Below are positions 7,412 through 23,611 of a stretch of DNA of 23,849 nucleotides, piece after piece. Under the pieces are notes generated by a model. That model was not told the DNA's origin. It saw only the letters and a list, made by a program, of their open reading frames with translations, and ran no database searches. Each line of letters starts with the position of its first letter. The first letter of the stretch is position 1. Both the position numbers and the translations under genes were made by a program. Origin of the DNA: a virus; the IMG/VR virus record IMGVR_UViG_3300046003_006687, positions 1-23,849 of that record, one strand, 5' to 3'.

Positions 7412-8212
7412 ATGATTAGCTTAATGCAACTATTAAAAGAAGTACAAGGAAACCCAAAAGCAATTATATTAGCTGGAGCCCCTGGAGCGGGTAAGGGATT
7501 TATCTTGAAAGGTTTAGATTTAGGAGGTTTAAAAGTCTTTAATCTAGACAATACTTTTATAGATTTACTAAAACAAGCTAATATATCTTTAGATTTAAAA
7601 TCTCATGGTCCTGAAGATAGAAGTGCTGCTGCTCAAGCAATGGTTCAGGCAACAGCTAAATTAAAAAAAGAAACAATACCTCAAGCTATAGCTAATCAAG
7701 ATTCATTTATATTAGATGGTACAGCTTCATCAGTTAAACAAACTAGTGAGCTAAAATCTGAATTGGAAGATGCTGGTTATGATGTATTTATGCTTTATGT
7801 TTATACTGATTTAGAACGTTCTTTACAACAAAACCAAGATCGATTTGAAAAATCAGGAGGTACTGATAGAAGTTTAGCACCTGGTATTGTATTACGTACA
7901 TGGGCTGATGTAACTAAAAATTATGATGCTTATAAAGAAATGTTTGGTAATAACTTTGTATCTGTAGCTAATACTTTAAATGATGAAAAATTAAAAGATT
8001 TAAAATCAATTACAGATAAATATCTTAAACCATTCGCACCCAAAGATACTAAACCTAAAGATCCTAAAGCACAAGCTCGATCTGAAAAAGCAAAAGAGCA
8101 ATTAAGCCAAGAAGTATCTACATTGCTTCAAGATGAAGCTGTAGCAAATATTATTAACAATTCTGTTTCTAAAGAAGAGGCACAATCCAAAATACAACAA
8201 TTTTTATCTTAA
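7412..8212 (+). CDS. P-loop kinase (zeta-toxin/AAA kinase-like) with putative head-targeting N-terminus
   Basis: This 266-residue protein has a Walker A site GAPGAGKG at 22-29, a following strand with NLDNTF (Asp46), FILDGTASS around 99-106, and a later basic helix with RFEKSGGTDRS. The layout matches zeta-toxin-type and small-molecule kinases, which phosphorylate a nucleotide, sugar-nucleotide or protein using ATP. The substrate is not evident. Residues 1-10 (MISLMQLLKE) are a short amphipathic helix ending in L-K-E, like T4 capsid-targeting peptides cut after L/I-x-E. The C-terminus (about 205-266) is a lysine-rich helical tail. It starts the head-cargo block behind a late-type motif and overlaps the next gene by one base (TAATG). 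Confidence 0.7.
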   Translation: MISLMQLLKEVQGNPKAIILAGAPGAGKGFILKGLDLGGLKVFNLDNTFIDLLKQANISLDLKSHGPEDRSAAAQAMVQATAKLKKETIPQAIANQDSFILDGTASSVKQTSELKSELEDAGYDVFMLYVYTDLERSLQQNQDRFEKSGGTDRSLAPGIVLRTWADVTKNYDAYKEMFGNNFVSVANTLNDEKLKDLKSITDKYLKPFAPKDTKPKDPKAQARSEKAKEQLSQEVSTLLQDEAVANIINNSVSKEEAQSKIQQFLS

Positions 8213-10224
8213 TGAATTCACTAGTACAGGAAATAATTGGAGGTTTACTACCAGAAGCAGAAGACAAAAGAAAAGTAGTGGCTGTATATGGTGGTGGTTT
8301 TAAACCACCTACAGAAGGTCATTTCGAGGTAGTAAAACAAGCATTAGAAGAAAACCCAGAAATTGATGAATTTATAATATTCATTGGTACCAAAGATAGA
8401 GATGGACTTACTAAAGCTGATTCTTTGTTAATTTGGGAGATATTTAACAAATACTTACCTTACAAAGTTAAAATTGATCCAAGTGATAAAGCTCCTATTC
8501 AAGCTATATATAATTACGCTAAAGAACATCCTGAAGAGGAGGTATTATTTGTAATTGGTGCTCGTGAAAATAATGAAGAAGATTTTAAAGATATAGCATT
8601 GCGTACTAAAAGTATGGATAAATACCCAAATCTACAATTACGTACTATTGTAACTAAAACTGCAGCATCAGGTACAGCTGCAAGGAATGCTGCTAAAGTT
8701 TCATTTGAAAAATTTAAACCATTCTTACCATCTGAATTAAATGATGATGAAGCAAAACAAGTATTTGATATAGTAGCTCAAAACATTCAGGAAGAACTTT
8801 TATTAGAAAATGCTTCATATTCTCAACATATAGATCTTAAAAGAGAGATTATTAACTTAACAAAACACATGATAGATAAGGGAATGAATATTCAACCCCT
8901 GCCTAAACTTGTGTTTAAAAATGGTGATAGTGAAAATGCTAAACAATTTCTAGGTAAAACTGCGTATTATGATCCTAATACTCAATCTATTGTATTGTAT
9001 ACTGAAGGAAGACATCCTAAAGATATAGTACGATCATTTTCACATGAAATGGTTCACCACACTCAATTCTTAGAAAATAGATTAGGTAATATTACTACTA
9101 CAAATACACAAGAAGATAGTGATTTAGATAAAATTGAACAAGAAGCTAACCTAGTAGGTACAATGACATTCAGAAATTGGACTGATAGTTTAAATGAAAA
9201 TAAAATCACCCCAGATGATGTCAATCGTATACTAAAACGTACTGGAGATGAACAAGATTTAACTGAACCTACTTGGGATGAATTCACCCCAGAAATGTGT
9301 AATAATGGGTTTTGTGATATCTTTGCTGAAAAATTTAGAGAAGAATATCCCGGAGCTGAAATATGGAATACATATTGGTCTGTAGGAATGACTATGGGGC
9401 ATGTATGGGTTAAATATCAAGGCAAATTTTATGATGCTGAAGCTCCAAATGGGGTTGACGATTGGAGAGAATTACCATACATTCAAAAAGTATTTAAAGC
9501 ACGTGGTAAGTATCCAGATGATGTAGAAAGATTAGCTGAAGCTATAGTTGGAAATAAAATTGTATGTGATAATTGTGGTTGGAGTTGGAATATAAAAGAT
9601 GGAGGAAATGATTTATATACTTGTCACAAATGTGGACACGATAATACCCCATTAAAAGAAAATAAAACAAAAGATCCTTTTGGAATAAATGCATACGCAA
9701 TGGAATTAGGAAGGTTACGAGAAGAAGAAACAGAATATAAAATCTATTTAGATATGGATGGTGTTGTAGCTGATTTCGATAAACGCTTTACAGATCTAGC
9801 AGGAATGGGTCCTAGAGAATTTGAAGAAGAGTATGGTAAAAATGCTTTTTGGGATTTTATAGATGAAGGAGATAATAAACTTGTATTTTGGATTGGAATC
9901 CCACCTATGTCAGATGCAAAACAACTTGTAGATTTTGTATCTAATTATGATTATGAGATGTTAACTGCACCTTCATTAAAGAAACAATCGGTAATGGGTA
10001 AAGGTTTATGGATGAAAAATCAAACTAATAAAGGATTATTTCCCTTTAAACCTAAAGTAAATTATAAAAGTGCTAAAAATAAAAAAGATTTTGCTGCTCC
10101 AAATCATATATTAATAGATGATCGAGAAGATAATATAAATAGTTGGATAGCTGCAGGTGGAATCGGTATATTACATACTAGTGCTTCAAGCACAATCAAT
10201 CAATTAAAAAAATTAGGTTTATGA
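8212..10224 (+). CDS. Five-module enzyme: nucleotidyltransferase, HExxH peptidase, Cys peptidase-like, zinc ribbon, HAD phosphatase
   Basis: One 670-residue frame holds several enzyme types. Residues 22-185 form a cytidylyltransferase/NMNAT-like domain with GGFKPPTEGH at 28-37 and SGTAAR near 153-158. Residues 205-330 contain HEMVH at 278-282 with a candidate third ligand Glu311, a zinc-peptidase pattern. Residues about 340-445 show Cys368 (NGFCDIF), His397 (GHVWV) and Asp408 (FYDAE), a papain/NlpC-like triad. A zinc ribbon uses C452, C455, C471 and C474. Residues 508-670 are a HAD domain with DMDG at 514-517 and LIDDRED near 634-640, like 5'(3')-deoxyribonucleotidases. The N-terminus ends in LLPE15-A, and LLLE199-N separates the first two modules; both fit L/I-x-E prohead cleavage. 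It may be a polyprotein packed in the head. The frame is continuous with no frameshift, and it overlaps both neighbours. Confidence 0.8.
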   Translation: MNSLVQEIIGGLLPEAEDKRKVVAVYGGGFKPPTEGHFEVVKQALEENPEIDEFIIFIGTKDRDGLTKADSLLIWEIFNKYLPYKVKIDPSDKAPIQAIYNYAKEHPEEEVLFVIGARENNEEDFKDIALRTKSMDKYPNLQLRTIVTKTAASGTAARNAAKVSFEKFKPFLPSELNDDEAKQVFDIVAQNIQEELLLENASYSQHIDLKREIINLTKHMIDKGMNIQPLPKLVFKNGDSENAKQFLGKTAYYDPNTQSIVLYTEGRHPKDIVRSFSHEMVHHTQFLENRLGNITTTNTQEDSDLDKIEQEANLVGTMTFRNWTDSLNENKITPDDVNRILKRTGDEQDLTEPTWDEFTPEMCNNGFCDIFAEKFREEYPGAEIWNTYWSVGMTMGHVWVKYQGKFYDAEAPNGVDDWRELPYIQKVFKARGKYPDDVERLAEAIVGNKIVCDNCGWSWNIKDGGNDLYTCHKCGHDNTPLKENKTKDPFGINAYAMELGRLREEETEYKIYLDMDGVVADFDKRFTDLAGMGPREFEEEYGKNAFWDFIDEGDNKLVFWIGIPPMSDAKQLVDFVSNYDYEMLTAPSLKKQSVMGKGLWMKNQTNKGLFPFKPKVNYKSAKNKKDFAAPNHILIDDREDNINSWIAAGGIGILHTSASSTINQLKKLGL

Positions 10225-10796
10225 GCCAAGATTCAGTTTTAAAAAAAGAATTTGCAAAGAAAGACGTTGAACGTCTTAGAAACCTTGTACAAGGTAAATA
10301 TGGAGAAAAAACTCAAACTAGTGTTGGGTACGTTAAGAAAACAGAATTTTACAACGAGGGTGATATTTGGGAAGCCGATGGTCGTACTTGGACTATTAAA
10401 GATGGTATTAAACAAAATGTTACTAAATTAGATGCTGCTAAAAAAGCACACTTAATGCCCTTAATGTGTCCGTGTTGTAATAAAATAATGAAAAATAAAA
10501 ACGATAAAACATATTATAAAATTCATAAAACGTGTTTTAAATGTGTTGTTGTTAAAGAAGATAAATTAAAACGAGAAGGTAAATTTGAAGAATACCAACA
10601 AGGAATTAAAAATGTTGAAATCGATAATAAAATTAAAGATTTTAAAATGTATGTAGCTGAAAAAATGTTAGAAAGCAACACAGGATTTATTTCTGAAGCA
10701 GGTGATGTTGAAAAATGGAGTGGTAAAATTAATGAAGAATTAGTTGATAAACACGTAAAGGAAGTAACTGAATACCTAGAATCGCTTAAAAAATAA
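10221..10796 (+). CDS. Zinc-finger protein of unknown function, 191 residues
   Basis: The gene starts inside the stop of the 670-residue gene (ATGA) and is probably co-translated with it. The N-terminal half is basic and helical (KKEFAKKDVERLRNLVQGKY). WEADGRTWTIKDGIKQNVT resembles a small beta-hairpin near residues 52-70. A four-cysteine knuckle follows: C84-P-C-C87 and, after about 20 residues, HKTCFKC. The last 80 residues are a charged helix. The cysteines suggest a metal-bound nucleic-acid or protein-binding module. I do not recognise the family. No CTS-like N-terminus is present, which sets it apart from neighbours. Confidence 0.6.
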   Translation: MSQDSVLKKEFAKKDVERLRNLVQGKYGEKTQTSVGYVKKTEFYNEGDIWEADGRTWTIKDGIKQNVTKLDAAKKAHLMPLMCPCCNKIMKNKNDKTYYKIHKTCFKCVVVKEDKLKREGKFEEYQQGIKNVEIDNKIKDFKMYVAEKMLESNTGFISEAGDVEKWSGKINEELVDKHVKEVTEYLESLKK

Positions 10797-10803
10797 AGTT
10801 ATA

Positions 10804-10817
10804 TATTTATTATAAAC
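10804..10817 (+). promoter_or_regulatory. Candidate late promoter motif TATTTATTATAAAC
   Basis: An AT-rich motif related to TATTTATAA lies in the 33-base gap, 26 bases before the ATG at 10830. It is a variant with an extra TTA. It belongs to the set found before head-type genes. Confidence 0.35.
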
Positions 10818-10829
10818 ACACACTGTAAT

Positions 10830-11207
10830 ATGGAAGATAATTTTGACATACACGCTTGGAATTTAAATCGTTATAAAGAAATGATTGTGGAAACAGATGA
10901 CCCAACTATTGGTGCTGAATTAGAAGCAGGTATGGATGGTACTGGAGTAGCTGAAGCTGAAGGTAACGGTAGTTTAGAAAGTTCACTTCATGCTGAATTT
11001 CCACAACTTGATTTTTATGTTAATACTTTTGGAGACAAAGGTGAAGTTACTATACGTCAAAAAAGTGATGTGTCCGAAGAAGATTTTAATGCTTTAACTT
11101 CATTTTTAGAAGATAAAGGATATACTGTTGATTATGAACAATCATATAGAGATTTTGATTATGATGATGACAGATATTGGATGCCTAGAATTAGATTTAA
11201 ACAATAA
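10830..11207 (+). CDS. Small acidic protein, candidate internal head protein
   Basis: This 125-residue, strongly acidic protein starts MEDNFDIHAW, a looser version of the MDNFD start shared with the genes at 11245, 17174, 17416 and 18188. The C-terminal half has a compact alternating pattern (LDFYVNTFGDKGEVTIRQK, EDFNALTSFLEDKGYTVDY) that looks like a small alpha/beta fold. No catalytic motif is visible. It has its own AT-rich upstream motif and sits between a zinc-finger gene and a core-type gene. The head assignment is inferred from the N-terminus, charge and context. The L/I-x-E cleavage site is less clear here (MIVE at about residue 18-21). Confidence 0.5.
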   Translation: MEDNFDIHAWNLNRYKEMIVETDDPTIGAELEAGMDGTGVAEAEGNGSLESSLHAEFPQLDFYVNTFGDKGEVTIRQKSDVSEEDFNALTSFLEDKGYTVDYEQSYRDFDYDDDRYWMPRIRFKQ

Positions 11208-11225
11208 AACAACAAATAATTTTAA

Positions 11226-11239
11226 TATTTATAAATAAA
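11226..11239 (+). promoter_or_regulatory. Candidate late promoter motif TATTTATAAATAAA
   Basis: This site contains both TATTTATA and the overlapping T4 late box TATAAATA on the + strand, in a 37-base gap. It lies 19 bases before the ATG at 11245 and is the best match to a T4-type late promoter in the window. Confidence 0.5.
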
Positions 11240-11244
11240 ATATA

Positions 11245-11721
11245 ATGGACAATTTCGACTACAAAAACTACCTAAAAAATAACCCATTACTTAATGAATC
11301 CATTTCTGAAGATGCTCGTACAGATGCAGAACAAGAAGGATACAAAGATGGGTTTGACGATGCTAAAGCAGACATCAAACAATCACTTTCTAAAATGAAA
11401 GTTTCAGAATTAAAAGCTAAAATTAAAGAAGATATTCTTTCTGTATTAAGTGAAGCTGATGAAGAAGTTGACGTTAATGTTGACACTCCTGAAGCTGATG
11501 TTAATGTAGATGCTGAGGGTGATAAAATTGACATTGAAGATAAAGGTGTTGATGCTACAGTAAACGTTGGTTTATCTAAAGAAGAAGAAGTAGTTCAAGA
11601 TTCATTACAAGCCGCTATGGAAGCTGCTAACTCATTAGGTAATCAAAAATTAGCTGACCAAATTGGAAATACTATTACTTTCTTTACAAGAGAATATGTA
11701 GTAGGAAGAAACAGCGATTAA
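11245..11721 (+). CDS. Acidic prohead-core-type protein with MDNFD N-terminus
   Basis: The protein has 158 residues. It begins [20 protein letters not shown], with candidate L/I-x-E sites at LNE18 and ISE22. Residues 54-70 ([17 protein letters not shown]) carry the second shared helix motif of this block and end in a third site, LSE70-A. A highly acidic stretch with repeated DVNVD follows (about 75-108), then a C-terminal helical module with [18 protein letters not shown] (131-148) that I recall from phage structural proteins. The pattern of targeting helix, acidic spacer and small module fits a scaffold-core or internal protein. The next gene starts one base after its stop, so both share a transcript. 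Confidence 0.6.
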
Positions 11722-11722
11722 T

Positions 11723-13957
11723 ATGCTTAACGAACGCAAACTTACCGAGAATGAACTAGAGCAACGTCAGATTGCTCTTAAAGGTCTAATGAAAAACAAA
11801 CGTTCCTTAGTTCAAAAATATGGTAAGGATGCAGAACAAGTTATGTATGGTATAGCAACCAAACAATCAAAATCCAAAGTAGAAAACATGAATAAAGACA
11901 AAATTAGAGAGATGATTAAATCTTCTTTATCCGTTGATGAATCAGGATATAGACCAATGACTGATGAAGAAAGAGCTAAAAAACAATATATGGATCAACA
12001 GCTTGCTAGAATGAGAAAAGCTGGTGAGAATTATGAAACTAGACAACGTATGTTGGCTGCTCAACAAAAGATGTATCAAGATAGATTAAAATCTACTATG
12101 AAAGAAGAAAACATAGAAGAGGCAAATCTAAATCCCGAATTAGTAAAAAAAGTTAGCCAATTTGTAAAAGGGATAGCTAAATACTATGATTATGCTGAGG
12201 AAAGTGCTTTATACTCTATTCATGACGCTTTAAAACAATTATATCCAGGTATAAGAGAAGGAGTTAACGAAGGTGAAGTTGATCTAGGGTCAGAATTATC
12301 AAAAGATTTTGAAAATATAATCTTTAAACTTAAAAAATATAGAGCTAATACTGACGATCAAAAATGGGTTAGAACTTTAGGTACTTTAATTAATGTTTTA
12401 CAATCAACCGAAGATAAATTCTCTGATGTTAGCCGTAAAATGGGTGTTATCCCAACCATTAATGAAACTCATTCTAGTAATCCAAATGACAGATATGTAG
12501 TAAAGTACTCTAAATCAAATGATACATACCAAGTGTGGGAAGGAGATACTTTAGTAACAGATTTTGCTACTAAAGAAAGAGCAAATGCCGAAGCTAAAAG
12601 ATTAAATATCTTACAAGATATTGAAAAAATGAATAAAGCTCAAGTGGGAGAAGATTTAGATGTAGGACATCAAGATGATGAACCTGGAATGTTAAAATCA
12701 GATGTATATCGTATAGCTAAAATGGCTTCAATGTTGTATCAACAATTAAATTCATATGGTAATATGGGTGAAGTTGATTTTCCGCATTGGTGGCAAGCTA
12801 AAATAATCAAAGCATATGATTATTTACAAAGTGCTTACGGATACTTAGATGGTGAAGAAAAAGTAGCTCAAATTGATTCTATGATTAATGTAGAACCATC
12901 AATTGAATTAGATGAAGTTAATTTAAAACAATCTAAATTATCACCAGCTGAATATCAAAAAGCTAAAAAATTAAAAGATTTTAAAGATAGTGATTGGAAA
13001 TTTAATTCTAAGGAAGATCTATATAATAAAACTTTAAAAGAAGCATCTGACAAATATTTCTTTCCAAAAGTTTCTAAAGATAAATCAAACCCTAATTTTT
13101 TAATGGTTTCAATTTATTACCCAACTGGAGAAGGAGCTTTAACTGCTTTAGGACAGAGAACAATGTCAGGTCAAGAAAGAGATAAGGGTGCTATTAAGGC
13201 AATGAAAATTGGAAACGAAATAGCTGATAAATTATCATCTAAATATAACCTTGAAGATATAGAAGTATCAGATAATGGTCGTGGTAGTGTAATCATATTT
13301 GCAGTATCAGATGATTTTATTGATATGCAAGTTGCTCCAATGGCTGAAAATAAAGAAGTTGATGAAATAGTAGGAGAAGAAAGCGATATGGCTAAATGGC
13401 GTCGTGCTAATAATGGAAAAGCGTTTGCTCGTAAAACAGTATATTTAACTAGCCCTATGGGTGCTAAATCAAGATATACAATTTTCCTTAATTATAAAGA
13501 AACTCCAACTGAGGATGTAATTTATACTACTGAAAAACTTTATGGAAATCATGAAGGTACAGGTTCACCTGAATCATTAAGTAATCTACAAAACAAACCT
13601 GAAAGATACCTATCCCCAGAAGATAGAATTAGCTTTAAAAATGAAGAATCATTAAATAAAATTATTCAAAACCCAAAAGAATTAGAAAGTATATTCTCTG
13701 ATTTTGTTGGTGATGATGTTGATGGTGCTCTTAGAGATTGGTTTGATAGTGGTGTTAGAACAGTTGAAAAAATAGATCCAGCTCAATTTTTAGGAATTAA
13801 TGAAGGAGAAATAGACGAAAAACTTACTAAAAAATCTAAAGTAGATACATATATTAAAGACTTTAAAGATTCAGATGCTCCTCAATTTAAAGGAAAATCA
13901 GAAGATAAAAAAGTAAAAATGGCAGTTGCCGCTTATTTATCTAAAAAAAATAAATAA
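11723..13957 (+). CDS. 744-residue modular prohead-core/internal protein
   Basis: This is the largest gene here, a mosaic of small helical modules with acidic linkers and no recognised enzyme. Residues 18-48 have [16 protein letters not shown], a stretch I associate with cyanophage core proteins. Residues 59-70 hold an IREMIKSSL helix like the shared motif. Residues 90-130 are coiled coil. Residues 257-296 form a small beta module ([18 protein letters not shown]). Residues 323-376 carry [18 protein letters not shown] and [13 protein letters not shown]. The C-terminus (706-744) has [16 protein letters not shown] and [11 protein letters not shown], a terminal module common in T4-like phage core proteins. 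It follows the previous gene with a one-base gap. An internal scaffold or cargo role is inferred; cleavage at several E-rich sites is possible. Confidence 0.6.
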
Positions 13958-13959
13958 TA

Positions 13960-14415
13960 ATGACTAAAGCCGAATTAAGAGAAAAAATTAAATCACTTGC
14001 GGTGCAAGTTATGGGTGAAAGATCCAAAGCTGATGATGCCGCTCTGGCTTATGATGAGTTAACTAAATTTCCCCAACTTAAAGAAATTATAGTTAATTTA
14101 ATGACTCATGAATTCAATTACTTTTTAGAGTCAATAGATTGGATTGCTCCCCGCCCTTCAACATTTAGAATAAATTTATTAAATGGTGAAAGTTTTATTC
14201 TTATATTTGGTGATCGTAGTTGGATAGCCCAAGTTGAAGGTAAAAAATATTACCTATTAAATCTTGATGAAGAAGAATTTGCTGCTCAAGCAATTAGTCG
14301 TATATTGCAATATGGACCAGCTAGTGGGGCAGATACAGAAGAAACTTCTGCACCAGCAGAAACACCAGAAGAAGAAGTAGATGTTAACGTAGATGAAGTT
14401 CCAGCTGAAGCATAG
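13960..14415 (+). CDS. Small acidic core-type protein, 151 residues
   Basis: The N-terminal helix MTKAELREKIKSLAVQVMGE resembles the shared K-x-EL-x-x-x-I-K motif seen at 11245, 14422 and 20822. A globular middle (about 25-125) has alternating strands (FRINLLNGESFILIFGDRSWIAQVEGKKYYLL) that suggest a compact beta fold. The C-terminus is a proline-, glutamate- and valine-rich acidic tail ending [15 protein letters not shown], which repeats the EEVDVNVD stretch of the 11245 protein. I do not recognise a named family. Position between the 744-residue mosaic and the next core gene suggests an internal or scaffold protein. Confidence 0.5.
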   Translation: MTKAELREKIKSLAVQVMGERSKADDAALAYDELTKFPQLKEIIVNLMTHEFNYFLESIDWIAPRPSTFRINLLNGESFILIFGDRSWIAQVEGKKYYLLNLDEEEFAAQAISRILQYGPASGADTEETSAPAETPEEEVDVNVDEVPAEA

Positions 14416-14421
14416 TAGATT

Positions 14422-15150
14422 ATGGAAACATACGGAGAATTAAAACAAGCAATAAAAGCAATTTCCTTAAAGCAAAAAGGTGCTAAAGTAGGTAACCTAG
14501 CTTTAGACGTTGTATTAGGTTCAATTCCCGGGATAGGAACAGCTAAAACTACTTTTGATTTTGTAAAAGCTGCTTTTGCTAAACCTGATACAAAAAAATC
14601 TAATAGTTGGTTAGATAAATTAGATATAGATGATAATATGTCTTCTATTATAGATGATACTGTGGAAAATGGTTTTTTACAAATGATATCTAAAGCTATA
14701 GATTCTGAATCGGATGCAACACCTTTAGAATCTGATTTTAATATGAATGCTAAGATGGTTGATTATCTAAAACAACAATATGGTGGTAGACATGTAGCGG
14801 GTATAACAGAAAATAAAATAAAACTAAATACAATCCTAATGAAAAAATCAGAAATAACTCAAATTATTAAAGAAGAAATTTCTAAACTTAAAAATTTAAG
14901 CGAATTAGAACCAGCTGCTCCTCAAACTATTCAAGGAAATATAAAATTAGATCTATTTAAAAAGTTAGGTGTTGCTAATTTTGAACCAGCTAAATTTTCA
15001 GCTGCTGTTAATTTAGTAAAACAAGGTAAACCTTTAAACGTAATTAATAATAAAGTTTTAGCTGACGTTATGGTTGCTATGATTAAAAGTAGTGATGATG
15101 GTTTATTAACTCAGATATTTCAAAATCTAAAACAAATTGAAGCTAAATAA
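14422..15150 (+). CDS. Core-type protein with hydrophobic glycine segment and internal targeting-like helix
   Basis: The protein has 242 residues. Residues 23-52 include a hydrophobic, glycine-containing stretch (LALDVVLGSIPGIGTAKTTF) that could insert in a membrane or pack in a helix bundle. Residues 63-127 form a module (WLDKLDIDDNMSSIIDD, DFNMNAKMVDYLKQQYGG) of a type seen in other T4-like phage core proteins. At residue 140 a second in-frame Met starts MKKSEITQIIKEEISKLKN, nearly the same as the start of the 20822 protein, so the gene looks like a fusion of two units or has an internal start at 14839. The end is an all-helical domain. It abuts the next gene with no gap. Confidence 0.5.
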   Translation: METYGELKQAIKAISLKQKGAKVGNLALDVVLGSIPGIGTAKTTFDFVKAAFAKPDTKKSNSWLDKLDIDDNMSSIIDDTVENGFLQMISKAIDSESDATPLESDFNMNAKMVDYLKQQYGGRHVAGITENKIKLNTILMKKSEITQIIKEEISKLKNLSELEPAAPQTIQGNIKLDLFKKLGVANFEPAKFSAAVNLVKQGKPLNVINNKVLADVMVAMIKSSDDGLLTQIFQNLKQIEAK

Positions 15151-16317
15151 ATGGATATTTTAGATACATTTTTCCAAAGGTATAGTTATAAATTTCCTAA
15201 AGGATATCCTGACATGAATAATGTTCAGGATGTTTTGTTGCTTGAGTCATTACTTGAAGATTTAGGTATTGATGTCCAATTAACAGAAGAAGTACCTAAT
15301 AAACCTAAAACAGTTCAAGCTGTAAAATATATAGTAGATACAGTAGGAGATAAATACGATTTATTTACATTAAAAAGTAAACCAAATAGATTAGGATTAA
15401 CTGGTAAGAAAGATTCCCAATTTTTTATAGATCTATTTAAAGAAGTATTTGGTCCTGAAACTCAAATTACAATGTTTCCTCCAAGAAAAGGAGCAAATCC
15501 AAGTGGTTCATTTAATATGTACCAAGTTGATACAGATGAATTTGGTCAAGTTAACATTATTGTTAGCTCAAACGCACCAGGTGGTGCCGGTAAAGACAAT
15601 GAATCCGTGTTTATAACCAACATAAATTCAAAAATCGAACAAGCGGGTGGAGAAGCAACTATAATAATTAAATCACCGGAACATACCGAAACTTTTAGCA
15701 AAGTAACCCAAGCAATAGATTCATCTAAAGCAGGAGCAGGTAAAGGAGATAAATCAGATGCTCAATTTTTATCAGGTCAACCTGGTACAGATACAGGAAA
15801 AGTAGTAGCAAATATATCTTTAAAACAAGATGGAGGGTTTAGATGGGCTTCAGTAGCTTCAACATTCCCTGATTTTATAAAAACATTTGAGAAAAAAGCA
15901 TTTGCTGGTGAAATTAAAGGATTTGGTTTACAAGAAAATCCTGAAGTAAAAGGAAAATATTTAATGTATAATCCTGATACTAATGAAAGAATAACAAAAG
16001 TTATTATACCTGATTTCCCTAAAGATAATGAAGAAGAATTAGTATTTGGTCCTGAAGAACCTAAAGTAATTGTAGTAGGTAGAACATGGAGTGATGATGA
16101 TTTTTCATTAGACGGAGATACTGTGATAGTGAAAGCTTCTCACATTTATAAAACTTTAGCTGATGTTGAAGAAGCAGGAATATCTCCTGTTTTTGTAATA
16201 GCACAACACCAAAATAAACCAATTGGTTTAGATTATAGAATATACCCAGCAGATATGGCTAAAATAGGTCCTAAAGCAAGAGCGGTAGAATTATCTTATA
16301 ACGATATAATGTCCTAA
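15151..16317 (+). CDS. 388-residue head-block protein, candidate PD-(D/E)XK-type nuclease
   Basis: The first 45 residues (YSYKFPKGYPDMNNVQDVLLLESLL) form a helix pair that I associate with phage proteins of this class; LTE46 is a possible prohead cleavage site. In the centre, Glu151 (KDNESVFITNINSK), Asp203 (KSDAQF) and the strand NISLKQDGGF with Lys225 are spaced like the E, D and x-K residues of restriction-type nucleases. The usual acidic residue before the Lys is Ser here, so activity is uncertain. The C-terminal 90 residues form a separate alpha/beta module (VIVVGRTWSDDDFSLDGDTV). The ATG follows the previous stop directly. If it is a nuclease packed in the head, host DNA would be the likely target. 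Confidence 0.45.
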   Translation: MDILDTFFQRYSYKFPKGYPDMNNVQDVLLLESLLEDLGIDVQLTEEVPNKPKTVQAVKYIVDTVGDKYDLFTLKSKPNRLGLTGKKDSQFFIDLFKEVFGPETQITMFPPRKGANPSGSFNMYQVDTDEFGQVNIIVSSNAPGGAGKDNESVFITNINSKIEQAGGEATIIIKSPEHTETFSKVTQAIDSSKAGAGKGDKSDAQFLSGQPGTDTGKVVANISLKQDGGFRWASVASTFPDFIKTFEKKAFAGEIKGFGLQENPEVKGKYLMYNPDTNERITKVIIPDFPKDNEEELVFGPEEPKVIVVGRTWSDDDFSLDGDTVIVKASHIYKTLADVEEAGISPVFVIAQHQNKPIGLDYRIYPADMAKIGPKARAVELSYNDIMS

Positions 16318-16319
16318 CT

Positions 16320-16928
16320 ATGTGTAAATGTGGATGCAATACATGCGAAACTAAAATAAGAGGTCCTTTACTAACTGAAGGTAAAGTAAAATCTCTATTG
16401 TCTGAAAACTTACAATATCATATTGATAAGCAGATACCTTTGTTTGAATCTGATTTTAGAATTGGTTCAAATGCTCACTTAAGATTAATTAAAGAAGCAC
16501 GTAAAATGTATTCACGTAATGTAATTGATTTATGTGAAGAAGACGAGCATTTAATTAAAACACATTTAGGTGAATTTGCTTTATATGAAAACGAATCTGT
16601 ACCCCTAGATTTACCTATGTTAGAAGAAGCTGAAATAGATGAAGCAGAATTTAAAGGTAAAGATGTTCCATTAGGTAAACCAAAACGTGGTGGGTCTAAA
16701 AAATATTATGTTTATGTTAAAGATGGTGATAGAGTAAAAAAAGTAACATTTGGCGACACAACAGGTTTATCAGCCAAAATACGTAATAAAGAAGCAAGAA
16801 CAGCTTTTGCCGCAAGACATGATTGCAAAAATAAAAAAGATAGAACTAAAGCAAGTTATTGGTCTTGTAACTTACCTAGATATGCTACAGCATTAGGGTT
16901 AGGGGCTAATATGAGTACTTATTGGTAA
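16320..16928 (+). CDS. Conserved T4-like phage protein with RHxC...YWSC C-terminal domain
   Basis: The protein has 202 residues. It opens with a cysteine cluster (MCKCGCNTCE), followed by LLTE20-G and LLSE29-N, two L-x-E sites suited to prohead protease. Residues 30-100 are a conserved-looking block with YSRNVID, THLGEFALYE and VPLDLPMLEEAE. The C-terminal domain (122-192) has KKYYVYVKDGDRVKKVTFGD and then RHDCKNKKDRTKASYWSC, a cysteine/histidine pattern I recall as a repeated module in cyanophage and related phage structural proteins. It probably binds metal or DNA. No function is established. It sits two bases after the candidate nuclease and one base before the cupin. Confidence 0.6.
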   Translation: MCKCGCNTCETKIRGPLLTEGKVKSLLSENLQYHIDKQIPLFESDFRIGSNAHLRLIKEARKMYSRNVIDLCEEDEHLIKTHLGEFALYENESVPLDLPMLEEAEIDEAEFKGKDVPLGKPKRGGSKKYYVYVKDGDRVKKVTFGDTTGLSAKIRNKEARTAFAARHDCKNKKDRTKASYWSCNLPRYATALGLGANMSTYW

Positions 16929-16929
16929 T

Positions 16930-17208
16930 ATGAAACCTTACACTGATTCCACAAACATCAGAACATTTTCAAAAGATGTTGACCCAATGGAATTAGTCTG
17001 GCATCAAGATAACGGAGATAGATTAATTGAGGTATTAGAAGGTGAAGGGTGGATGTTTCAACGTGATGATGAATTACCAAAACCAATAAATAAAGGAGAT
17101 TATATATTTATACCGGATCAACAGATTCATAGAATACATAAAGGAAATACTGATTTAAAAATTAAAATAAACAATGGACAATTTCGATTTGAAAAAATAC
17201 TTAGCTGA
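16930..17208 (+). CDS. Small single-domain cupin
   Basis: This 92-residue protein has a cupin core: ELVWHQDNGDRLIEVLEGEGW (about 22-42), then KGDYIFIPDQQIHRIHKGN (about 55-74). Likely metal ligands are His25 and His67, with Glu35 or Glu38 as candidates, fewer than in fully active cupins. Such mini-cupins occur in T4-like phage core regions. The function may be structural, metal-binding or sugar-related, and the substrate is unknown. Its last 35 bases overlap the start of the next gene in another frame. The same DNA therefore encodes the cupin end (NNGQFRFEKILS) and the MDNFDLKKYLAE tag of the 17174 protein. Confidence 0.7.
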   Translation: MKPYTDSTNIRTFSKDVDPMELVWHQDNGDRLIEVLEGEGWMFQRDDELPKPINKGDYIFIPDQQIHRIHKGNTDLKIKINNGQFRFEKILS

Positions 17209-17416
17209 AGGTAAATTAAGCGAAGAAAATTACGAAGAAGATTATGATACTGGAGGATATGTAGAAGCAATGAGTCCCGATCTTTTTGATCATGTTAATG
17301 AAATAGTTAGAATATTTCAAGAATGGGAAAGAGGACCAATGACTGAACCCGGAATGATAGGATATGCTAAAGATGATTTAGTAGATTATATAACAGGTAA
17401 AATTAGAAACGCATAA
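17174..17416 (+). CDS. Small internal head protein with MDNFDLKKYLAEGKL tag
   Basis: This 80-residue protein begins MDNFDLKKYLAEGKL. The first 12 residues form an amphipathic helix ending in L10-A-E12 before Gly, which matches the L/I-x-E rule of T4 gp21 protease and resembles the T4 internal-protein leader MKTYQEFIAE. After an acidic linker comes a helical module (VNEIVRIFQEWERGPMTEPG, then YAKDDLVDYITGKI) that I have seen in other phage core proteins. The gene starts 35 bases inside the cupin gene and its stop overlaps the ATG of the next gene (TAATG), so three genes are coupled. The tag argues for packaging in the head. Confidence 0.6.
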   Translation: MDNFDLKKYLAEGKLSEENYEEDYDTGGYVEAMSPDLFDHVNEIVRIFQEWERGPMTEPGMIGYAKDDLVDYITGKIRNA

Positions 17417-18174
17417 TGGATAATTTCGATTTAAGAAAATATTTAGCTGAAGGGAAATTATTAAATGAAGAAGTAAAATCTTTTTCATTTGATTCTTTTG
17501 ATGTTGGTTTATTAGCTGATGGTTTAGAATGCCTTATTGAATACCGAGAAGGAATAGAATCTGATGAATATATTAGTGATGTTAAATATTTACTAAGAAA
17601 ATTAGCAGGTAGAGTAAATGAAACTATAGTTCAAGAAGGTGATGAAGATGGAGGAGCTGAAGAAGCAGCATTTGATGCTGAATTTCAAAGTGCAGCTAAT
17701 CAAATAGCAGCTACTATAGGTAAAGAATTAAAAGATAAAAAAGCAGAAAATCCTGAAGCATTAAATGAAGCAATAGTAACTTCTACTATAGCTGCTATTT
17801 TAACAGGTAATGCGGTTTTAGGATTTATTTCAAAAATGGCTGCTAAATTAATGAAAAAATTAAATTGGAAAAAAGGTGAAGATTTTGCTGAAAAAATTCA
17901 TCACTGGGCTCATGATAATGAAATTGCCTTCCAAGCACCAATTAGACGTGTTTTAGCATTCTTTATTAAAGATAAAGCTAAATTAGATATGACTGTTAAA
18001 GCTATTTATGCAATTGTAGTTGGTAGTATGGCTGCGGGTTATGGAGTAAGTGCTGTATCAAGTTTAGAAAAAGCAGATTGGTTTAACTCATCTTTATCAG
18101 CATTAAAAACATTAGCTAAATCAGATGAAGCAATAGCTAACGCATTCCCAGCAATAAAATCATTAATGGTATAA
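17416..18174 (+). CDS. Tagged internal head protein with two hydrophobic segments
   Basis: The protein has 252 residues and opens with the tag MDNFDLRKYLAEGKLLNEE, nearly identical to that of the 18188 protein. Compared with 18188 over the first 19 codons there are four silent changes and one that alters the residue (N/K), so selection keeps the peptide. Residues 20-115 are acidic and helical. Residues 119-139 (IVTSTIAAILTGNAVLGFIS) and 196-214 (AIYAIVVGSMAAGYGVSAV) are hydrophobic and glycine/alanine-rich, of a length able to cross a membrane, and separated by a charged region. A packaged protein with membrane-active parts could help DNA pass the host envelope after ejection. That role is inference; the hydrophobic parts might instead pack a soluble bundle. 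Confidence 0.55.
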   Translation: MDNFDLRKYLAEGKLLNEEVKSFSFDSFDVGLLADGLECLIEYREGIESDEYISDVKYLLRKLAGRVNETIVQEGDEDGGAEEAAFDAEFQSAANQIAATIGKELKDKKAENPEALNEAIVTSTIAAILTGNAVLGFISKMAAKLMKKLNWKKGEDFAEKIHHWAHDNEIAFQAPIRRVLAFFIKDKAKLDMTVKAIYAIVVGSMAAGYGVSAVSSLEKADWFNSSLSALKTLAKSDEAIANAFPAIKSLMV

Positions 18175-18187
18175 TAATATAAATAAA

Positions 18188-18502
18188 ATGGATAACTTTG
18201 ATTTAAGAAAATATCTAGCTGAAGGCAAATTATTAAAAGAAGAAATAAACTCAGAACTTGAGGATTATATTAATGATCTATTTAACCAATCAATTGAAGA
18301 AGAAGAAGGACAACAAGAAGGTATTTGGGAAAAAGAAGAATATGCTTCTGATGATTACGAAGATGCAGAAGTATTTTTAGAATTAGTAGATTATTTAAAA
18401 TCTACAGGTGGTAAATATACTTTAGAAGGTAATCCTGATATTAATTTAGAATTATTATCTAACGGAGACATTAAATGGGACGCTTTTGTAACATTTGATT
18501 AA
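18188..18502 (+). CDS. Small acidic tagged internal head protein
   Basis: This 104-residue protein begins MDNFDLRKYLAEGKLLKEE, the third clear copy of the tag, with the likely cleavage after LAE12. The remainder is strongly acidic (SIEEEEGQQEG, EKEEYASDDYEDAE) with a short C-terminal alpha/beta segment (GKYTLEGNPDINLELLSNGDIKWDAF). No enzyme motif is seen. A T4-late-like TATAAATA box at 18178-18185 lies just before the ATG, too close to leave a leader, so it may be part of the A-rich ribosome entry region instead. It closes the head-cargo block: the following 121 bases hold hairpins and a promoter. Confidence 0.6.
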   Translation: MDNFDLRKYLAEGKLLKEEINSELEDYINDLFNQSIEEEEGQQEGIWEKEEYASDDYEDAEVFLELVDYLKSTGGKYTLEGNPDINLELLSNGDIKWDAFVTFD

Positions 18503-20821: not shown

Positions 20822-21361
20822 ATGAAAAAATCAGAATTAAAATCGTTTATCAAAGAAGAAATATTGTCTTCCCTTAAAGAAGGTGTTTGGTCAGTAATGC
20901 CAGAACGTATCCCAGAATTTATTGCAGCTATAGAAGAAATTAAAGAAGAATTTCATGCCGTTGTAGGTAGTGATGATGTGTATGATGGTTTAGATCGTGC
21001 CGTTCAGGCAGCTAGAGATTTAATGGCAATGAGAAATGAAGCTACAATTGAAACTGCACCTGAAAATTTAGCAAAAGTAAAATCTGTTGCTAAACCTGAT
21101 GATACTATTAGAGTAACTGAAGCAGAAGATGAAGACGAATTTGATGCTCCTGATAAAGAACCATCTAAAGCAGAATTGAAAAAAACTAAAGGTTTAGCTA
21201 AAGCAAAAGATGAATTAGCTCTTTTAGTTAAAGATATGAAATCATTAGCTCGTAAATATAAAGAAGCTGAAGGTGCTGCTAAAGAAAAAATTGTTGCTGA
21301 TTTAAAGAAAAAAACAGCATTAAAAAAAGAATTAGAATCTATTGTAAATAAAGCATTGTAA
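20822..21361 (+). CDS. Prohead-core-type protein with KKSELKxxIKEE leader
   Basis: The 179-residue protein starts MKKSELKSFIKEEILSSLKEG, a basic-acidic amphipathic helix ending in L-K-E20 before Gly, again an L/I-x-E site. Nearly the same helix is found inside the 14422 protein (from residue 140) and in the 11245 protein (54-70). Residues 24-70 form a helical module (PERIPEFIAAIEEIKEEFHAVVGSDDVYDGLDRA). A long acidic linker follows (98-115), and then a lysine-rich coiled coil to the end. Such charge-rich helical proteins make the inner scaffold of T4-type proheads (gp22, gp67, gp68); no homology can be claimed. It lies one base before the membrane gene 21363. Confidence 0.55.
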   Translation: MKKSELKSFIKEEILSSLKEGVWSVMPERIPEFIAAIEEIKEEFHAVVGSDDVYDGLDRAVQAARDLMAMRNEATIETAPENLAKVKSVAKPDDTIRVTEAEDEDEFDAPDKEPSKAELKKTKGLAKAKDELALLVKDMKSLARKYKEAEGAAKEKIVADLKKKTALKKELESIVNKAL

Positions 21362-21362
21362 T

Positions 21363-21746
21363 ATGTCTTCTAAAGAAAGGTTTTTATACTTAGCTGCAAT
21401 ATGCATTTTAGTTGTTGGTTTAGCTTATTTGCTATTTTCCGACAGCAAATCGTATGTAGGTGAATATAAAACAAAAATAGAAACTCTAGGTAAAAAAGTT
21501 GATTCGTTGGATATTGTTAACGACGAATTGACTTTAAAAATAGATACATTAAATCAAGAAGTAATTAAATTAGATCAAGAAATCGATCTTAAAGATAACA
21601 AAATAAACAACTTAAGATATGAAATCAAAACCAAAGTTGATGCTGTTGATTCTTTTACTGACGATGAGCTTGAAAGGTTTTTCACAGAGCGCTACAGACA
21701 GCACTTCGATTCAATTAAAAAAGCCAACCGCCCGTCTAGTAATTAA
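21363..21746 (+). CDS. Membrane-anchored coiled-coil protein (candidate inner-membrane spanin or envelope protein)
   Basis: This 127-residue protein has one N-terminal membrane helix (FLYLAAICILVVGLAYLLF, about 7-25) after a short charged start, then a heptad-patterned coiled coil (about 38-90; repeated L/I at a and d positions). The end is charged. An N-in, C-out topology with a periplasmic coiled coil is that of inner-membrane spanin subunits such as lambda Rz. The last 128 bases overlap the next gene in another frame, as Rz1 does with Rz. A lysis role is an inference; no holin or endolysin is visible in this window. Other tethered envelope roles are possible. Confidence 0.6.
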   Translation: MSSKERFLYLAAICILVVGLAYLLFSDSKSYVGEYKTKIETLGKKVDSLDIVNDELTLKIDTLNQEVIKLDQEIDLKDNKINNLRYEIKTKVDAVDSFTDDELERFFTERYRQHFDSIKKANRPSSN

Positions 21747-22038
21747 GGATCTTATCAAAGGGGATGGTGCTAAACAAGAATTAGTACTTTTTAAAGAAAA
21801 AACTATTCTTTTAGAACAAAAAATTGTTTTAAAGGATAGTATTATATCTGCCCTAAATTCTAAAGTAAGTAATTTTGAGATAATGGTAGATACTCAAAAA
21901 CAACAACTTGCTTTATCTCAAGAACTATCTGACCGTTTACATTCTGATTTGAAAAAACAGAAAATCAAAACTAAATTAACAGGAGGTATAGGTATATTAG
22001 TTGCTATTGCTACTACTACCCTTCTTATACTAAAATAG
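21619..22038 (+). CDS. Signal-peptide, coiled-coil, C-terminal membrane-helix protein overlapping the previous gene
   Basis: The 139-residue protein starts with a clear signal peptide (MKSKPKLMLLILLLTMSLKGFSQ) of Bacteroidota style, ending in FSQ. A coiled coil follows at about 55-115 and a hydrophobic C-terminus (TGGIGILVAIATTTLLILK) closes it. No lipobox cysteine is present, so it is not a classical Rz1-type lipoprotein. The ATG lies inside the previous gene and the two frames overlap by 128 bases, which makes the start convincing because the signal peptide is encoded in the overlap. Paired coiled-coil envelope proteins suggest a lysis or envelope-spanning complex. It ends one base before terminase. 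Confidence 0.6.
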   Translation: MKSKPKLMLLILLLTMSLKGFSQSATDSTSIQLKKPTARLVIKDLIKGDGAKQELVLFKEKTILLEQKIVLKDSIISALNSKVSNFEIMVDTQKQQLALSQELSDRLHSDLKKQKIKTKLTGGIGILVAIATTTLLILK

Positions 22039-22039
22039 T

Positions 22040-23611
22040 ATGTCAGATTTAAAACAGGTAATACGCCAAGAATATTTAAGATGTGCCCAAGACCCAGTAC
22101 ATTTTATGCGTAAGTACTGTTATATACAGCATCCACAACGTGGACGTATACAATTTAATTTATACCCATTCCAAGAAAAAGTATTAACACTATTTCGCGA
22201 TAATGACTATACTACTGTATTAAAATCAAGACAGTTAGGTATATCGACTTTAGCCGCTGGTTATGCTCTATGGTTAATGATTTTTCATAAAGATCGAAAC
22301 GTATTAGCATTAGCAACTACACAAGCAACTGCCCGTAACTTAGTTACTAAGGTTCAGTTTATGTGGGAAAATTTACCCTCCTGGCTTAAAGTAGATGCTG
22401 TAGAGAATAATAAATTATCTCTTAGGTTAGTTAATGGTTCAAAAATACAAGCAAAATCATCTAATGCCGATGCTGCAAGATCAGAAGCCGTATCTTTACT
22501 AATAGTCGATGAGGCAGCTTTTATTGAAAATATTGCTGAGACATGGGCTTCAGCACAGCAAACCTTAGCAACTGGGGGTGGAGCGATTGTATTATCTACT
22601 CCTTATGGTACAGGTAACTGGTTTCACCAAACTTGGGTTAAAGCAGAATCAGGTGAAAATGACTTTTTACCTATTAAATTACCTTGGTATGTTCATCCTG
22701 AACGTGATCAAATTTGGAGAGATAGACAAAATGAACTTTTAGGTGATCCTAGATTAGCAGCTCAAGAATGTGATTGTGATTTTAGCACCTCTGGAGATAT
22801 TGTATTCTATAATGAATACTTAGAATTATATGAAAAATCTCATATAAAAGATCCTTTAGAACGTAGAGGAGCAGATCAAAATTTATGGGTTTGGGAATCA
22901 GCAGATTACTCAAGAGATTATATGGTTGTAGCTGACGTTGCTCGTGGAGATGGAAAAGATTATTCTTCATTCCATGTTATAGAGGTTGAAAATAATGTTC
23001 AAGTTGCTGAATATAAGGGACAAATTGGTACTAAAGAATTTGGTCACTTATTAGTTGGTATCGCTACTGAATATAATAATGCAATGCTTGTAATAGAAAA
23101 TGCTAACATTGGTTGGGCAACTATACAAGTAGCAATAGATAGACAATACTCTAACCTTTACTATTCACAACGGAGTGACTCCTCAAATGTAGATTCGTAT
23201 TTTGATAAATATCAAGACCATTCACGTATGGTAGCTGGATTTACAATGTCATCTAAAACACGACCTATGGTAATAGGTAAGTTTCAAGAATATATTGCTG
23301 ATCAAGGAGTAACAATTCAATCAAAAAGATTGATAGAAGAAATGAAAGTATTCATTTGGAAAAATGGTAGAGCAGAAGCACAAACAGGATATAATGATGA
23401 TTTAGTTATGGCTTTTGGTATAGCAATGTACATTAGAGATACAGCATTAAAATTCCGTCAAAGAGGAATTGATATGACAAAACAAGCATTACAAAACACA
23501 ATAGTAAACAGAACCGCTTATGGTGGAGCTTATGGAACCGGAGCTAATGCTCAAAATCCATACGCTATGAAAGCAGGTAACAGTCAAGAAGACATTAGAT
23601 GGTTACTATAA
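22040..23611 (+). CDS. Terminase large subunit, gp17-like
   Basis: The 523-residue protein shows both domains of the packaging motor. The ATPase part has a Walker A variant SRQLGIST at 63-70, LLIVDEAAF with Asp157-Glu158 as Walker B, and STPYGTGNW (186-194) as the coupling motif. The nuclease part has Asp299 in VVADVARGD, Glu353 in LVIENAN, and Asp453/454 in YNDDLVMA, the three acidic metal ligands of the RNase H-like fold. It cuts concatemeric DNA and drives it into the prohead through the portal. It is somewhat shorter than T4 gp17 (610 residues). The portal gene follows directly, with no tail tube or sheath genes between as in T4. Confidence 0.95.
   Translation: MSDLKQVIRQEYLRCAQDPVHFMRKYCYIQHPQRGRIQFNLYPFQEKVLTLFRDNDYTTVLKSRQLGISTLAAGYALWLMIFHKDRNVLALATTQATARNLVTKVQFMWENLPSWLKVDAVENNKLSLRLVNGSKIQAKSSNADAARSEAVSLLIVDEAAFIENIAETWASAQQTLATGGGAIVLSTPYGTGNWFHQTWVKAESGENDFLPIKLPWYVHPERDQIWRDRQNELLGDPRLAAQECDCDFSTSGDIVFYNEYLELYEKSHIKDPLERRGADQNLWVWESADYSRDYMVVADVARGDGKDYSSFHVIEVENNVQVAEYKGQIGTKEFGHLLVGIATEYNNAMLVIENANIGWATIQVAIDRQYSNLYYSQRSDSSNVDSYFDKYQDHSRMVAGFTMSSKTRPMVIGKFQEYIADQGVTIQSKRLIEEMKVFIWKNGRAEAQTGYNDDLVMAFGIAMYIRDTALKFRQRGIDMTKQALQNTIVNRTAYGGAYGTGANAQNPYAMKAGNSQEDIRWLL

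Follow-up and report, generated by a model that had tools for sequence, protein, structure and literature searches.

The leaders and where they stand

Can a few short N-terminal leaders that recur on unrelated proteins carry those proteins into a phage head? The question is raised by a 23.8-kb fragment of a T4-like virus in IMG/VR (IMGVR_UViG_3300046003_006687, positions 1 to 23,849; here, the window), in which a preliminary description had seen genes 7412-18502 as an enzyme set packed in the head through a shared N-terminal tag. The best explanation, and in our judgment a very probable one, is capsid targeting of the cargo encoded in this block, with removal of the leader by a prohead protease. 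The virus appears to be marine, T4-like, and associated with hosts among the Bacteroidetes. Its terminase shares 64% identity with that of Flavobacterium phage immuto, the nearest isolate to emerge from the search, and 53% with that of Microcystis phage Mel-JY01. The window stops inside the portal gene, and the head proteins were therefore read from relatives.

22040-23611, + strand: terminase large subunit (TerL); phrog_2, E 4e-54; 64% identical to immuto; anchor of the search for relatives

We delimited the block from gene order and wrote four leader patterns, in both cases after having seen immuto. Instead of the single tag first described, there are several: leader A (M[DE]NF[DN]L..[FY]L.E), leader B (MKKSEL..IIKE, at 20822 and internally at 14839), and leader D (M..L..LLKE, at 7412 and 8212) occur in the window, while leader C (RMQKLAGI) is absent from it and is found in immuto and its relatives. 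The N-termini quoted originally are all present, at 7412, 8212, 16320, 17174, 17416, and 18188. In the following list, genes are named by their first position, and a slash marks a candidate cut.

7412-7441, + strand: leader D, MISLMQLLKE/; in homologues the same kinase follows MIKLTDLLKE, MISLVQLLKE, or leader A (L107, MDNFNLKKYLTEGSLLKE)
8212-8256, + strand: polyprotein leader, MNSLVQEIIGGLLPE/A; residues 11-17 have low confidence in the AlphaFold2 (AF2) model
10830-10892, + strand: leader A-like, MEDNFDIHAWNLNRYKEMIVE/T; resembles immuto gp069, MENNFDIHKW
11245-11298, + strand: leader A-like
13960-14415, + strand: B-like leader MTKAELRE/ plus cargo; in immuto, the cargo seems to have become part of gp079, placed after KKVSKSELKEIMLE
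14839-14898, + strand: internal leader B, MKKSEITQIIKEEISKLKNL, inside open reading frame (ORF) 14422, with its own ATG
16320-16406, + strand: two-site leader, LLTE/G and LLSE/N, conserved in homologues
17174-17209, + strand: leader A, MDNFDLKKYLAE/G; cargo homologous to immuto gp069, which adjoins the protease gene
17416-17469, + strand: leader A, MDNFDLRKYLAE/GKLLNE/; cargo family seen with leaders A, B, C, and D
18188-18241, + strand: leader A, MDNFDLRKYLAE/GKLLKE/; homologue L042 has leader C
20822-20881, + strand: leader B, MKKSELKSFIKE/EILSSLKE/G; homologues with the same leader lie upstream of TerL

The three consecutive genes 17174, 17416, and 18188 all start with MDNFDL[KR]KYLAEGKL. 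Between any two of them, 37 to 44 of the 48 nucleotides of leader DNA are identical; over the next 48 nucleotides, only 17 are identical between 17174 and 17416 and 27 between 17416 and 18188. The N-terminus of 20822 is tag-like, though it lies outside the range originally described. As a separate observation, ORF 14422-15150 holds a complete leader B whose ATG is at 14839, and this ORF may represent two fused cargo genes or contain an internal start.

The same leaders on unrelated cargoes

Scanning IMG/VR for leader A returned at least 120 stretches, after which proteins were collected from all fetched loci; further scans were made for leaders C and B. Among the matches listed, at least 153 distinct proteins carry leader A (the MDNFDLKKYLAE tag), and the bodies of 42 residues or longer (at least 150) fall into at least 90 single-linkage clusters, 63 of them with a single member. 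The same leader is found on unrelated mature proteins, as in the capsid-targeted internal proteins of the T4 type. A tblastn search with a bare 22-residue leader gave no match in 50,697 phage records, the query being probably too short.

Comparison of the leaders across related phages, which the preliminary description had proposed, showed them to be exchangeable, with 19 cargo families in the fetched loci occurring behind two or more leader types (one of the 19 is a broad 22-member cluster, apparently chained from more than one family). The window kinase is among them, with leader D here and leader A in L107, and the cargoes of 17416 and 18188 have the range of leaders listed above. Along similar lines, the YunG-like domain that is internal to a larger protein in the window is a separate gene with leader A in L189 and L196 and with leader D in L272 and L404. 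In most cases, the alignments of such pairs begin within a few residues of the L/I-x-E site. Judged from sequence, the leaders thus behave as modules of at least four types, swapped between unrelated cargoes near L/I-x-E.

Leader C, the scaffold tail, and the prohead protease

Immuto gp083 and gp230 start with MKKQILSEQF[KR]RMQ.LAGIITES. In 16 of 16 relatives, leader C matches the C-terminus of the scaffold: the ORF that immediately precedes gp23 has R[MF]xKLAG[IL] as its tail, recognized by a script pattern in 14 of them and read from the printed tails in the two with F. These 16 loci had been fetched by their terminase alone and so are independent of the motif; no other ORF in them matched the scaffold-tail pattern. 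For 68 of 69 N-terminal copies of leader C, an [LIVM]xE lies no more than 12 residues further on, compared with 16% of random windows. The match between leader C and the scaffold C-terminus suggests docking of cargo through mimicry of the scaffold.

The preliminary description had proposed a search for a gp21-like protease downstream of the portal, and the relatives have such a gene near theirs. Immuto gp070 is a Peptidase_S77 of the gp21 type (PF03420, E 9e-35) with 86 homologues in the fetched loci, and gp066 is Gp23. Among the large virus records that bear tags, 23 in all, the S77 protease and gp23 are encoded together in 22; the remaining record lacks both and is probably a fragment. The controls were 14 genomes, none of which gave the protease, and did not include a set of unrelated viruses. 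Both genes lie outside the window and are known from immuto and from those 22 records. The Gp23 N-termini of relatives have the same style of site (LLE/S).

It might be argued that the tagged proteins belong to the core or to the minor components of the head, where they would remain after processing, their enzyme folds being structural or assembly related and nothing being injected to act on the host. This agrees with the genes between portal and protease in relatives, which also have short leader-like N-termini with xxE, as do T4 gp67 and gp68. However, the catalytic motifs of the cargoes are retained (GGGFKPPTEGH, SGTAAR, HEMVH, DMDG), their bodies are extremely diverse, unlike core proteins, and one tagged cargo (L267) resembles anti-CBASS Acb1 (26.4 bits, just below the cut-off of 27), whose role is needed in the host. 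We consider this alternative unlikely.

The product of gene 8212

Enzyme domains had been described as alternating along the block in separate genes. This holds for the kinase, which has its own gene, and not for the nucleotidyltransferase, the HExxH segment, the YunG-like domain, the zinc ribbon, and the HAD domain, all of which belong to the 670-residue product of 8212. In the list, pLDDT is the predicted local distance difference test.

8269-8790, + strand: NaMN/PPAT-type adenylyltransferase domain; GGGFKPPTEGH and SGTAAR motifs; Foldseek 8aih, E 5.6e-6; phrog_3041, E 5e-7
8791-8808, + strand: linker with candidate protease sites IQE/ (8793) and LLE/N (8808); pLDDT <50 at residues 195-206
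8824-9189, + strand: HExxH metallopeptidase-like segment; HEMVH at 9043; Pfam matches below threshold only
9190-9198, + strand: candidate junction LNE/N; homologues of the next domain are separate genes with leader A or D
9199-9531, + strand: YunG-like domain; PF24591, E 5.6e-5, below its cut-off
9541-9651, + strand: zinc-ribbon segment between candidate sites LAE/A (9540) and LKE/N (9660); Pfam zinc-ribbon matches below threshold
9715-9723, + strand: candidate junction LRE/E before the HAD domain; pLDDT <50 at residues 481-506
9724-10221, + strand: HAD/5'-deoxyribonucleotidase domain; phrog_2643, E 1e-24

The product resembles a polyprotein: candidate sites follow residues 15, 194, 199, 329, 443, 483, and 504, near its domain borders, and further L/IxE motifs lie inside domains, near residues 47, 53, 76, 352, and 552. 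Confidence in the AF2 model is good for residues 21-193 and 507-670, approximately, and low for 11-17, 195-206, and 481-506. In immuto, the HAD domain is a gene of its own that starts with MKKVMGNLADLLLEES, a leader ending in LLLEES, while L095 and L107 have segments similar to those of 8212 in other orders, joined by [LI]NE-type links. Among 264 homologous proteins, 170 of 303 module starts fall within 8 residues of an L/IxE motif, against 72 expected, in counts that include near-duplicates, so that the cases are not independent.

Gene 8212 lies 12 kb upstream of TerL and combines adenylyltransferase and HAD folds with the HExxH segment, that is, the multiple activities of a polyvalent protein. 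A second alternative is that these multidomain proteins are packaged and injected but process themselves through a zincin-like metallopeptidase, as proposed by Iyer et al. 2017 (PMC5512222), the L/IxE spacing being incidental. The union of unrelated activities with an HExxH segment fits this; on the other hand, the same leaders stand on single-domain cargoes without a peptidase, leaders are exchanged near L/IxE, and S77 is linked to the tags. We regard self-processing as quite improbable.

Statistics of the L/I-x-E motif

Within the window, [LI]xE occurs in residues 4-28 of 10 of 14 block genes versus 5 of 17 others (Fisher P = 0.03). In the complete proteome of immuto, the figures are 20 of 25 block and head genes versus 44 of 187 others (P = 5e-8). 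Six of nine control motifs were flat in immuto ([LI]xD, [LI]xQ/N, [LI]E, Ex[LI], [VMF]xE, and [AGSTN]xE; P 0.1 to 1), and the other three were weaker than [LI]xE, though not flat ([LI]xxE, 4e-5; [LI]xK, 0.01; [KR]xE, 0.03). That the leaders are ordinary amphipathic or coiled-coil helices making assembly contacts without proteolysis, with L/IxE arising from composition, is very improbable: they do look helical and E-rich, and [LI]xxE is enriched too, but the six flat controls, the site that follows 68 of 69 copies of leader C, and the invariant E and strictly placed L/I of leader A (in part a consequence of the search pattern, which required them) speak against it.

Several points weigh against capsid targeting with leader removal. 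The enrichment within the window alone is weak, the control [LI]xxE is also raised at N-termini, and at internal module starts the control Ex[LI] is raised as well, owing to an EDLDVGH module. Several block genes lack a recognizable leader, and in 10221, 14422, 15151, and 16930 no [LI]xE occurs among residues 1-28; 16930 is the cupin, which had been counted in the tagged set, as had the candidate nuclease, 15151, for which there was no Pfam support. Leader exchange starts near the site, not exactly at it (up to 11 residues off in most pairs), and one exchanged pair was misaligned. Leader patterns and block limits were of our own setting, and pattern scans find what they seek. Finally, the window ends at the portal, leaving the virus's own protease and capsid unseen, and no virion proteome was found for this virus, immuto, or their clade.

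Proposed mechanism and significance

With these points counted in, capsid targeting still explains the data best. The sequences themselves show the leaders, their sites, their exchange, the linked protease, and the match to the scaffold tail. The leaders would act as capsid-targeting propeptides that attach proteins to the core of scaffold in the prohead under assembly, or to its inner shell, cargo with leader C doing so by imitating the scaffold tail. The gp21-type (S77) protease would then cut after L/I-x-E and free the mature protein inside the head, and the same protease may separate the domains of polyprotein cargoes such as the 8212 product. By analogy with the T4 internal proteins and Alt, on which the presumed host targets of the cargo (nucleotides, NAD, and proteins) also rest, the enzymes would be delivered to the host together with the DNA. 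Packaging in the head is supported by published data on a different protein, the S-SM1 cytidylyltransferase, which has a T4-like leader (see below).

We see about even chances that this is a general natural loading system of marine T4-like phages, in which a small number of exchangeable tags, including one that copies the tail by which the scaffold docks, bring effectors and polyproteins of an open-ended range into the head, and the protease sites double as borders for recombination of tags and domains. If capsid targeting is right, the virion cargo of an abundant marine phage group could be predicted from a short N-terminal pattern, and many "hypothetical" genes would become candidate injected effectors. 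Among the cargoes seen here are a kinase of the Zeta family, an adenylyltransferase of the NAD/CoA type, and a nucleotidase, together with proteins that weakly match Acb1 and an ADP-ribosyltransferase. Through the match to the scaffold tail, cargo docking in a T4-like prohead becomes directly testable.

Other cargoes and neighboring genes

The remaining features of the block are as follows.

7442-8209, + strand: Zeta-toxin-family P-loop kinase cargo; PF06414, E 8e-16; homologue in Pelagibacter phage HTVC008M (BLASTP, E 2e-22)
10221-10796, + strand: conserved block gene with four cysteines and no N-terminal L/IxE; 37 homologues in the loci
11723-13957, + strand: 744-residue protein with an internal module common to immuto gp079 and other proteins, in varied contexts
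15151-16317, + strand: 388-residue block protein, LLE sites near residue 32; N-terminus similar to immuto gp078
17470-18171, + strand: alpha-helical cargo with hydrophobic segments; 69% identical to immuto gp095 over the C-terminal 160 residues

Most printed copies of the 11723 module stand after x-x-E; an expected match in a cyanophage was not found, and only immuto matched. The length of this protein varies between close relatives, being 801 residues instead of 744 in L193 (L193:3949-6351), whose neighboring genes are near-identical to those of the window. The body of 16320 is also present in HTVC008M, and in Melnitz it forms a fusion with a nucleotidyltransferase. The 17470-18171 family, the most widely re-tagged cargo (a 31-member cluster), has leader B in immuto gp095; its hydrophobic segments mean that it could be membrane active, and the AF2 model of the 17416 cargo was unusable (pLDDT 49). 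Across 110 representative cargoes, Pfam matches were few and PADLOC matched no defense system. L021 resembles an ADP-ribosyltransferase (20.4, below the cut-off of 27), which, like the Acb1 resemblance, is a lead only.

Upstream of TerL, the overlapping small genes 21363-21746 (with a membrane helix) and 21619-22038 (with a signal-like N-terminus) form a spanin-like pair, with a comparable arrangement in Mel-JY01 at 15018 and 15385.

Comparison with known systems

No earlier description of such tags was found in the literature, with subscription journals and preprints largely outside coverage, and their novelty is therefore provisional. The closest parallel is with T4 IPI-III and Alt (PMC9026906), which share the short N-terminal leader, the L/I-x-E site, the nonstructural cargo, and an S77 protease gene near the portal, seen here in relatives. 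The T4 capsid-targeting sequence has ten residues, of which 4 and 7 serve targeting and 8 and 10 serve processing (PMC9026906); aligned by eye, leader A lines up with the key residues of IPIII (aromatic residues 4 and 9, L 10, and E 12). In contrast to T4, the leaders here are of four types or more, stand on cargoes from dozens of families, and are exchanged from one cargo to another; some cargo is multidomain and has candidate sites within it, and the scaffold C-terminus is matched by one of the leaders.

A second parallel is the cytidylyltransferase T4-GC190, detected by mass spectrometry in purified virions of cyanophage S-SM1 (PMC3037559). Its gene (L410:10257-11420) starts with MKKFSAFLNE/AE, near the IPIII sequence MKTYQEFIAE/A. 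Like the window domain, it is a nucleotidyltransferase, and the Kyanoviridae relative HTVC008M has a homologue of the window kinase, adjoining a cytidyltransferase gene. It differs in being distant from the window domain, with a local signature only, as seen in HTVC008M, and the available portion of that report describes it neither as tagged cargo nor as cleaved. Between the adenylyltransferase of the window and that of HTVC008M, only an analogy and not close homology is claimed, because BLASTP aligned the motif region only. HTVC008M also has a kinase, a cytidyltransferase, a 16320-like domain, and a 5'-nucleotidase in one stretch (L407:2563-7719), as do the window and immuto.

The polyvalent proteins, predicted to be injected and, as noted, proposed to be processed by zincin-like peptidases (PMC5512222), resemble 8212 in joining several unrelated enzyme domains in one polypeptide beside packaging genes. 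Here, in contrast, L/IxE at domain borders suggests cutting by the prohead protease, and the same leaders are found on cargoes with a single domain. In the inner-head propeptides of phiKZ and SPN3US (PMC9026906, PMC5694885), a prohead protease likewise cuts packaged proteins after glutamate. Unlike those, our leaders are short and recur little changed on unrelated cargoes.

In engineered loading of P22 particles, cargo is fused to the scaffold protein. The resemblance to this approach, reviewed in PMC9962691, is that cargo would enter by a scaffold-derived peptide, whereas here the loading is apparently natural, involves many cargoes, and the peptide adjoins predicted protease sites.

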